From positions 1 through 32,372 of the forward strand of contig CAJBZC010000114.1 in the NCBI GenBank assembly GCA_903959965.1: DNA of 32,372 nt, given 5' to 3'. Shown here one piece after another: positions 28,672 through 30,243 of this stretch (positions within the stretch are counted from its first letter, which is position 1; each line of letters opens with the position of its first letter). The position numbers and the translations under genes are program-made. This stretch comes from an uncultured bacterium. Lineage in GTDB: Bacteria > Bacteroidota > Bacteroidia > Chitinophagales > Chitinophagaceae. The notes below the pieces were generated by a model. The model had not been told where the DNA came from. It saw nothing but the letters and a program-made list of their open reading frames with translations, and did no database searches.

Positions 28672-28755
28672 TTAGATCATAATGCCCGCAATCCCGGGCG
28701 ACTGTTGAAAAGTTTTGACAACCCATCAACGGCGTTTGCCTAATTTGCCTGCGCG

Positions 28756-30243
28756 ATGTTCACACAATTGGACCTGTTTGGTGACTTACCCGCGCCGGAA
28801 AAACCGTCGACCCCTTCACAGCGGACTGAAAAAAAATCCACTGCAAGATCCGGCAATACCGGCTCCTCAACCCAGCCGACCCAGGCACAATTAAGCATGG
28901 GACTGCCTGAGGACGCGTTCCCGGAACCTTCCCGAGCATGGGCGGCACAGGAAGATGCACAAAAAGATCAAACTAAGGAAGTTCTTCAGAATGATCCCGC
29001 TAACCTTGTTGAATCCGAGCCCGAAAACATCATCCACCAAGCAGTCGAACACCCTGAACCATTAAATCCGACCGAAAAGCTTGATCAGCCATCGGCTTCA
29101 GATCCTTCAGCGGCATCAGAACTATCCGATGCGCAGAGAGAGTCGAACAAAATCCAGTCACTGATCTCAAGATCCGCCCCGGAAATTCCAGAAGAAAGCA
29201 GGGCAGAAAAAGGACGCAGATATTACATTCAGACAGAGATCCCTGCCGATCCACCCCTCGCCGCCAAACCTCCCGGGCCCGAAATATTGATGGCAGGCCT
29301 CATCTCCAACCGAAATACGGCTCAGGAACCCCGCCCCAGATATATTCAGACGGAAATACCCTCAGATCTGATCGAACCTGCAGCCATTGCCGTTAAAGCA
29401 TCGGATGCCGGGGTTACAACCACTGCGGAAACGGTTAATACTTCTTCCAACCTGCCGATACCTCCCGTGCCAGACGCTTCGACACCTGTCACCCCGGTAT
29501 TAGTAGAACAGGAGAAGATTCGGCCTGAAATATCCGAAGCCTCGTTGCGAAGAACCAGACCGCTCATGCCTCCCAAGGTGATCATGGCTGATCCGGAATG
29601 GGAAAAAGAGGCCCATTCAAACACAGAGGCAGTTGATGCGCTTAAGAACAGTACAAGATTATTATCGGAATCCAGCATAGACATCCCTGCCACTACTGAC
29701 AGCACGAGTGCAGATATCGACGAGAAATATCTGTCGGATGTCCAGGTATCCCGTCAGGAAACTGTGGTTCCGTCTATGCCCGACCCATTGCCTGCCCCCG
29801 AAACAGTAGTGCAAAGCATACAAGCCTCAATGCGTCGCAAAAAGGTTTCAAAGGAAGCTGTGATCGACAACGCAGGAGCAGGTGTGCCCGCGGACGAGCA
29901 ACTCAATGCACGTCAATATTACAGCATCGGGGAGGTGGCCACTATGTTCAATGTGAAAGCATCCCTGTTGAGATACTGGGAATCTGAATTCGACATGTTG
30001 AAACTGCGAAAGAACAGAAAGGGAGACCGTTTTTTTCGACCTGACGACATCAAAAGTCTGCAACTGATCCACCACCTGCTCAAGGAAAAGAAATATACCA
30101 TCGAAGGCGCGCGTGAATACATGAGGAATGCGGGAAAAATGAAAGAGAAGTTCGAGACAATTGAAACGCTTCAACGGATTCGTCAGTTCCTAGTCGAAAT
30201 GCGGAACGGACTACAAATCGAGCGTATACAGGATAATCATTGA
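28756..30243 (+). CDS. MerR-family-like HTH protein with ~385-aa low-complexity N-terminal extension
   Basis: C-terminal RQYYSIGEVATMFNVKASLLRYWESEFDMLKLRKNRKGDRFFRPDDIKSLQLIHHLLKEKKYTIEGAREYMRN is a MerR HTH; the rest is P/S/T/A/E-rich. Confidence 0.88.
   Translation: MFTQLDLFGDLPAPEKPSTPSQRTEKKSTARSGNTGSSTQPTQAQLSMGLPEDAFPEPSRAWAAQEDAQKDQTKEVLQNDPANLVESEPENIIHQAVEHPEPLNPTEKLDQPSASDPSAASELSDAQRESNKIQSLISRSAPEIPEESRAEKGRRYYIQTEIPADPPLAAKPPGPEILMAGLISNRNTAQEPRPRYIQTEIPSDLIEPAAIAVKASDAGVTTTAETVNTSSNLPIPPVPDASTPVTPVLVEQEKIRPEISEASLRRTRPLMPPKVIMADPEWEKEAHSNTEAVDALKNSTRLLSESSIDIPATTDSTSADIDEKYLSDVQVSRQETVVPSMPDPLPAPETVVQSIQASMRRKKVSKEAVIDNAGAGVPADEQLNARQYYSIGEVATMFNVKASLLRYWESEFDMLKLRKNRKGDRFFRPDDIKSLQLIHHLLKEKKYTIEGAREYMRNAGKMKEKFETIETLQRIRQFLVEMRNGLQIERIQDNH

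Follow-up and report, generated by a model that had tools for sequence, protein, structure and literature searches.

A candidate sliding-clamp-binding motif at the N-terminus of an MliR-family MerR-type protein in Chitinophagaceae

The window, a stretch of 32,372 nucleotides from an uncultured member of the Chitinophagaceae, encodes a MerR-type protein of the MliR family whose N-terminus carries QLDLF, the consensus of the clamp-binding motif, in a region predicted to be disordered. The motif is conserved in most orthologues of the family, and it is probable that the protein is a DNA-binding protein, likely dimeric, that is tethered to the sliding clamp by this motif and acts in a replication-coupled manner. 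The bacterial clamp clients described so far consist largely of polymerases, ligase, mismatch-repair proteins, the clamp loader and a small number of initiation regulators. If the proposal is true, a winged-helix protein of the transcription-factor type on the clamp represents a new kind of client, and the tether would couple gene regulation directly to replication. No description of a clamp motif on a MerR protein was found in the open-access literature. To our knowledge, replication control in Bacteroidota has been little studied, and the motif-bearing regulator offers a specific, testable entry point to it in named strains such as Terrimonas ferruginea DSM 30193 and Agriterribacter humi.

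Architecture of the protein

The first 12 codons (28756-28791), read from the ATG at 28756, encode MFTQLDLFGDLP. The original prediction of QLDLF at the extreme N-terminus of a MerR-like regulator proved real (Table 1), and across the window the degenerate DNA pattern for Q-L-D-L-F has a single occurrence vs 0.04 expected from shuffles. In many orthologues a TAnnTTTR-type (-7) box lies a few nucleotides before the ATG, which supports the choice of start codon; the TAATTTG of the window is one base shorter than this consensus. The position of the element suggests that the mRNA may be leaderless or near-leaderless.

Table 1. Features of the MerR-type gene and its upstream region in the window
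Feature	Position	Strand	Evidence
495-aa MerR-type (MliR-family) protein with N-terminal extension	28756..30243, stop codon included	+	ORF, Pfam, AlphaFold2
QLDLF, putative clamp-binding motif, residues 4-8	28765..28779	+	Sequence; family conservation
Disordered linker, about residues 9-378	28780..29889	+	AlphaFold2 low confidence, no secondary structure; length and sequence unconserved
MerR winged-helix DNA-binding domain, residues 389-458	29920..30129	+	Pfam PF13411 (MerR_1), E 7.6e-18; predicted fold
C-terminal long helix, residues 459-494	30130..30237	+	Predicted structure
TAATTTG, possible -7 promoter element just 5' of the start codon	28741..28747	+	Sequence; TAnnTTTR at this place in many orthologues
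DnaA-box-like site TTTTCAACA	28703..28711	-	One mismatch to TTWTNCACA; degenerate copy of a family-conserved site

A Pfam search of the window protein returned MerR families only, and no AAA+ (DnaA-like) ATPase domain of the kind present in Hda. The best solved-structure matches to the predicted fold are MerR proteins, GlnR/TnrA and RacA. By analogy with the MerR family, the C-terminal helix is likely a dimerisation coiled coil; in the predicted structure no effector-binding domain follows it, and the protein ends there. The long, probably disordered linker that had been proposed between motif and domain is supported by AlphaFold2, in which the first ~375 residues of the window protein are of low confidence and lack secondary structure, and the folded domain extends from ~380 to 494. 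The model of a 201-aa orthologue (51 sequences) likewise has a disordered start and a confident domain from residue 91. Across the family orthologues the linker measures 26 to 892 residues and its sequence is unalignable.

Neither model places the motif region with confidence or docks it on the domain, and no contact-like order is seen there. These features, together with the range of linker lengths, make intramolecular regulation, with the motif packed against the MerR domain or coiled coil of its own chain, very improbable. Such packing has a precedent in the MliR of Bizionia argentinensis, whose first residues were modelled as lying on its domain (PMC9478572), but the equivalent of that N-terminal segment is the stretch immediately ahead of the domain, not the motif. 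The idea that the motif forms part of a folded domain is unsupported by structure prediction and by linker length variation.

Several further elements occur between motif and domain. The peptide RYIQTEIP is repeated in the linker of the window protein (about 29217-29250 and 29336-29367), and L098 has a similar KYVQTELP. Directly before the winged helix, at least 93 of the 112 orthologues (e.g., residues 74-80 of L003) have a conserved basic patch of sequence RGRKSLK, its core AT-hook-like (GRP/GRK); the patch is degenerate or absent in the window's genus. A second linker mini-motif, VFxDDKIxVKIKxK or GVRIKSLK, is present in 25 orthologues (e.g., L104, L105, L117, L086, and L088).

The motif in Chitinophagaceae and its predicted partner

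The MerR core is present in 146 of 150 family genomes, and in 132 of the 133 of good quality. Named strains of Terrimonas, Agriterribacter and Ferruginibacter show the family to be Chitinophagaceae, and 112 of its orthologues were read. After four non-ATG starts and one domain boundary (L115, MALQQLDLF) had been reset, Q-x-x-[LIMF]-(x)-F was found near the start of 100 of them; the counts and shuffles ignore shared ancestry, and the sample spans about 100 genera. Fifty orthologues carry a pentameric form (QLDLF, QLSLF, QLELF, QLNIF, and others) and 50 a hexameric one (QITFDF, QITFEF, QIAFDF, QISLDF, QITLDF, and others). A version lacking the glutamine occurs in nine: [VI]L[TS]LF in six and PTLF in L137, all within the deepest branch, and PDLF in L010 and L022. 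The remaining three (L033, L084, and L100) have nothing similar near the start. Conservation of the motif in Chitinophagaceae, which the original prediction had proposed as a check, is therefore found, and it includes exchange between the two forms. Since QLDLF, QITLF and QITFDF all occur among named Terrimonas, the forms interconvert. On the tree of the MerR domain the motif classes require 5-7 changes, although this tree is poorly resolved, its well-supported branches force just one change, and the window protein is a poorly placed long branch. Within the protein, conservation is highest in the winged helix. Since all sequences chosen for the alignments A1 and A2 bear the motif, the invariant Gln and Phe in them are not independent evidence.

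Single pentapeptides do arise by chance, a possibility that the original prediction had allowed for QLDLF, and a few spurious frames in the searched genomes also open with MxQLDLF. This explanation now has a negligible probability: it is ruled out by the retention of the motif at one set place throughout the family, next to sequence that does not align, and by the fact that the 33 genes with QLDLF write it in 23 different 15-base DNA sequences, which shows that selection acts on the peptide. No further match to the motif was found in 12,949 linker positions of the family. The N-terminal pattern M-x5-Q-I-x-F-[DE]-F, sought in 21 genomes, gave nine matches, of which eight are the start of the MerR-type gene and the ninth contains an in-frame stop, while MxQLDLF starts in 15 genomes comprise the MerR-type gene (L311) and four tiny or internal frames. 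A permissive form of the motif is present in 15 of 405 neighbouring ORFs, about nine of these being the homologous N-terminus of AlaS.

Pentameric and hexameric classes are both documented clamp-binding motifs that share one pocket; QLDLF is the strongest clamp peptide, and LQLELDF is a hexamer obtained by phage display (PMC11139829). The Pol IV of the window's genome has QTNLF near its C-terminus, and the Pol IV of relatives has QLELF, QLSLF, QIDLF or QMDIF. The replicative DnaE of the family (loci L299-L304) has a Gln-less [ST]N[TS]LFG, or MGSLFG in L303, aligned to the QADMF of E. coli. From DnaE, a Gln-less clamp motif may be acceptable in this lineage, which would explain the branch of orthologues without the glutamine. 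The pocket of the clamp (L209) is identical to that of E. coli at 10 of 19 positions (R152, T172, H175, R176, L177, P242, V247, N320, M362, and P363 are retained), and the remaining positions are mostly conservative and nearly invariant in the family. The differences include E. coli R246 and R365, which are V and M in L209.

Tethering of the protein to DnaN by its N-terminal motif is favored by the presence of the motif in so many orthologues, by the agreement of both forms with clamp motif classes, by the largely conserved pocket, by the predicted disorder around the motif, and by the comparable motifs in Pol IV and DnaE of the same family. It is weighed down by the Gln-less and absent motifs, by the two arginine replacements in the pocket (R246V and R365M), and by the Phe at position 4 of 37 of the 50 hexamers, where known binders usually have Leu or Met. 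On balance we consider tethering to the clamp probable, with fairly good confidence. The same irregularities, namely the Phe-containing hexamers and the deep branch without Gln, would suit a short linear motif for another partner, such as RNA polymerase or a protease adaptor, the more so because the link to DnaN is one of sequence resemblance only. This alternative is nevertheless quite unlikely, given that the exchange is between exactly the two clamp motif classes, that the motif matches those of Pol IV in the same genomes, and that the Gln-less variants resemble the DnaE motif of the family.

Clamp binding could also serve competition, with the protein filling the pocket and so throttling clamp users such as Pol IV, the MerR domain acting mainly as a DNA anchor and transcription control being secondary. 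Many natural clamp peptides are weaker than QLDLF, and overexpression of a QLDLF peptide inhibits the growth of E. coli (PMC11139829), and the motifs of Pol IV and DnaE in the family (QTNLF and NTLF) look weaker. Against this purpose, which we judge unlikely, stand the winged helix as the most conserved part of the protein and the altered gene expression associated with MliR, an orthologue without the motif.

In the favored mechanism, that of a clamp-tethered regulator, the Chitinophagaceae form of MliR would have gained an N-terminal short linear motif that docks in the standard partner pocket of DnaN. The disordered linker would then provide a flexible tether, and the winged helix would act on nearby DNA. 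Through this arrangement the DNA-binding domain would be concentrated in the vicinity of replication forks, or of clamps that remain on newly made DNA, and the tethered protein could function as a replication-coupled regulator of transcription or of nucleoid state. Expression of translesion polymerases and cell division are candidate outputs.

Orthologues outside the family and comparison with known systems

Neither the motif nor the N-terminal extension occurs in the 50 loci taken from other families of this order and class, where the protein opens ~10 residues ahead of the domain with a sequence of the MPYKEKEIE or MHIELSKD type. The loci read in detail are the best-scoring ones; distant orthologues were seen through their open-frame lengths, which for most of the other outside-family matches agree with no extension. 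The motif is thus rejected as a general property of all orthologues: the expectation that it accompanies the MerR domain holds inside Chitinophagaceae and fails outside, where the whole extension is missing. Judged from these sequences, the extension with its putative tether is a lineage-specific gain of Chitinophagaceae.

Most genomes of the class contain one strong match, which indicates orthology to MliR. The MliR of B. argentinensis is a MerR-like iron-responsive regulator of 109 residues, numbered among them M1, I3, L5, K8, Y11, E15, A19, and F20, and its deletion results in slow growth, filaments and altered transcription (PMC9478572). The class member L036 has the same length of 109 aa and the residues numbered in that work. 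MliR belongs to the same family as the window protein and shares the MerR winged helix and the C-terminal helix without an effector domain. However, it starts about nine residues before the domain and has neither clamp motif nor linker, and the work on it concerns the regulation of iron and envelope functions and makes no link to DnaN. Since MliR lacks the clamp motif, its phenotype is independent of the clamp tether and describes the ancestral function. The neighboring genes include an M23 peptidase, AlaS, an LpxH-like hydrolase and a mechanosensitive-channel-like protein, among others. The M23 peptidase is a neighbor in 22 of 80 family loci and in 29 of 50 outside loci, so that orthology inside and outside the family is supported by a partly shared M23/AlaS neighborhood. 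The neighbors differ between clades, and no operon with replication genes was found among them.

The original comparison with Hda, the DnaN-binding inactivator of DnaA, is apt for the placement of the motif, which in Hda also lies in a disordered N-terminus (PMC11139829). By contrast, the proteins themselves are unrelated, Hda being an AAA+ ATPase without a MerR domain. Eight family genomes each contained one strong DnaA-type ATPase and no clear Hda. A closer likeness is found in late transcription of phage T4, where the transcription proteins gp33 and gp55 are tied to the clamp gp45 by a short motif on a linker (PMC7892883). These would be the closest working analogue of a clamp-tethered MerR-type protein. 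They differ in being phage proteins that bind RNA polymerase, with the motif at the C-terminus and no homology to the MerR-type protein. We know of no RNA polymerase contact for the latter. YabA of Bacillus subtilis is not a winged-helix DNA-binding protein. Its likeness to the protein described here, which is predicted to bind DnaN, lies in regulating replication as a DnaN-binding protein, and in doing so in bacteria that work without the E. coli system, but it is an unrelated tetramer that binds DnaA and DnaN (PMC4705661).

The DnaA-box-like site upstream

Where the window has TTTTCAACA, congeners have TTATGCACA and TTATTCACA. Between -90 and -35 relative to the ATG, the pattern TT[AT]TNCAC[ACT] is present in 50 of 95 orthologues vs 13 of 403 neighboring ORFs, and the exact TTWTNCACA in 32 of the 95 vs 0.7 in shuffles. 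Most copies of the site lie 57-66 nt from the start codon, and it accompanies both motif classes and various upstream genes (e.g., L008, L065, L066, L017, L094, and L102). Outside the family it is not enriched, with 2 of 39 loci having it within 300 nt. The sequence is similar to the DnaA box TTATNCACA, position 3 being A or T. The commonest upstream form, TTTTCCACA (the TTTT form), is missing from the putative oriC cluster of the complete family genome G019, and DnaA is for this reason an inferred binder; autoregulation by the MerR-type protein is the main alternative. Close pairs of TTTTCCACA were not found in 14 genomes, nor was a cluster of boxes within about 1.5 kb of dnaA, as an oriC check on the box, in eight genomes.

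The case for replication coupling draws on the enrichment of this upstream site in the family and is weighed down by neighbors that are not replication genes and by the mismatch in the upstream site of the window. A gene controlled by DnaA through the upstream box, with its product on the clamp and the winged helix linking fork activity to the transcription of repair and division genes, is a tentative proposal. Taken in full, such a DnaA-controlled, replication-coupled protein could be a cellular equivalent of the clamp-activated transcription of T4, in bacteria without an evident Hda, an analogy that is possible although doubtful.

The putative oriC of G019 (L336, G019:C1, about 2375.6-2375.9 kb) contains eight or nine TTATNCAC boxes; the cluster of TTATNCAC[ACT] lies within about 280 bp, is intergenic, and is adjacent to a nadA-like gene. 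Clustered TTATNCACA boxes are also located upstream of an mraZ-like gene (L343, G019:C1, 2763.6 kb; L339, G005:C1, 2214.0 kb) that heads a division and cell-wall cluster, which suggests DnaA control of division genes.
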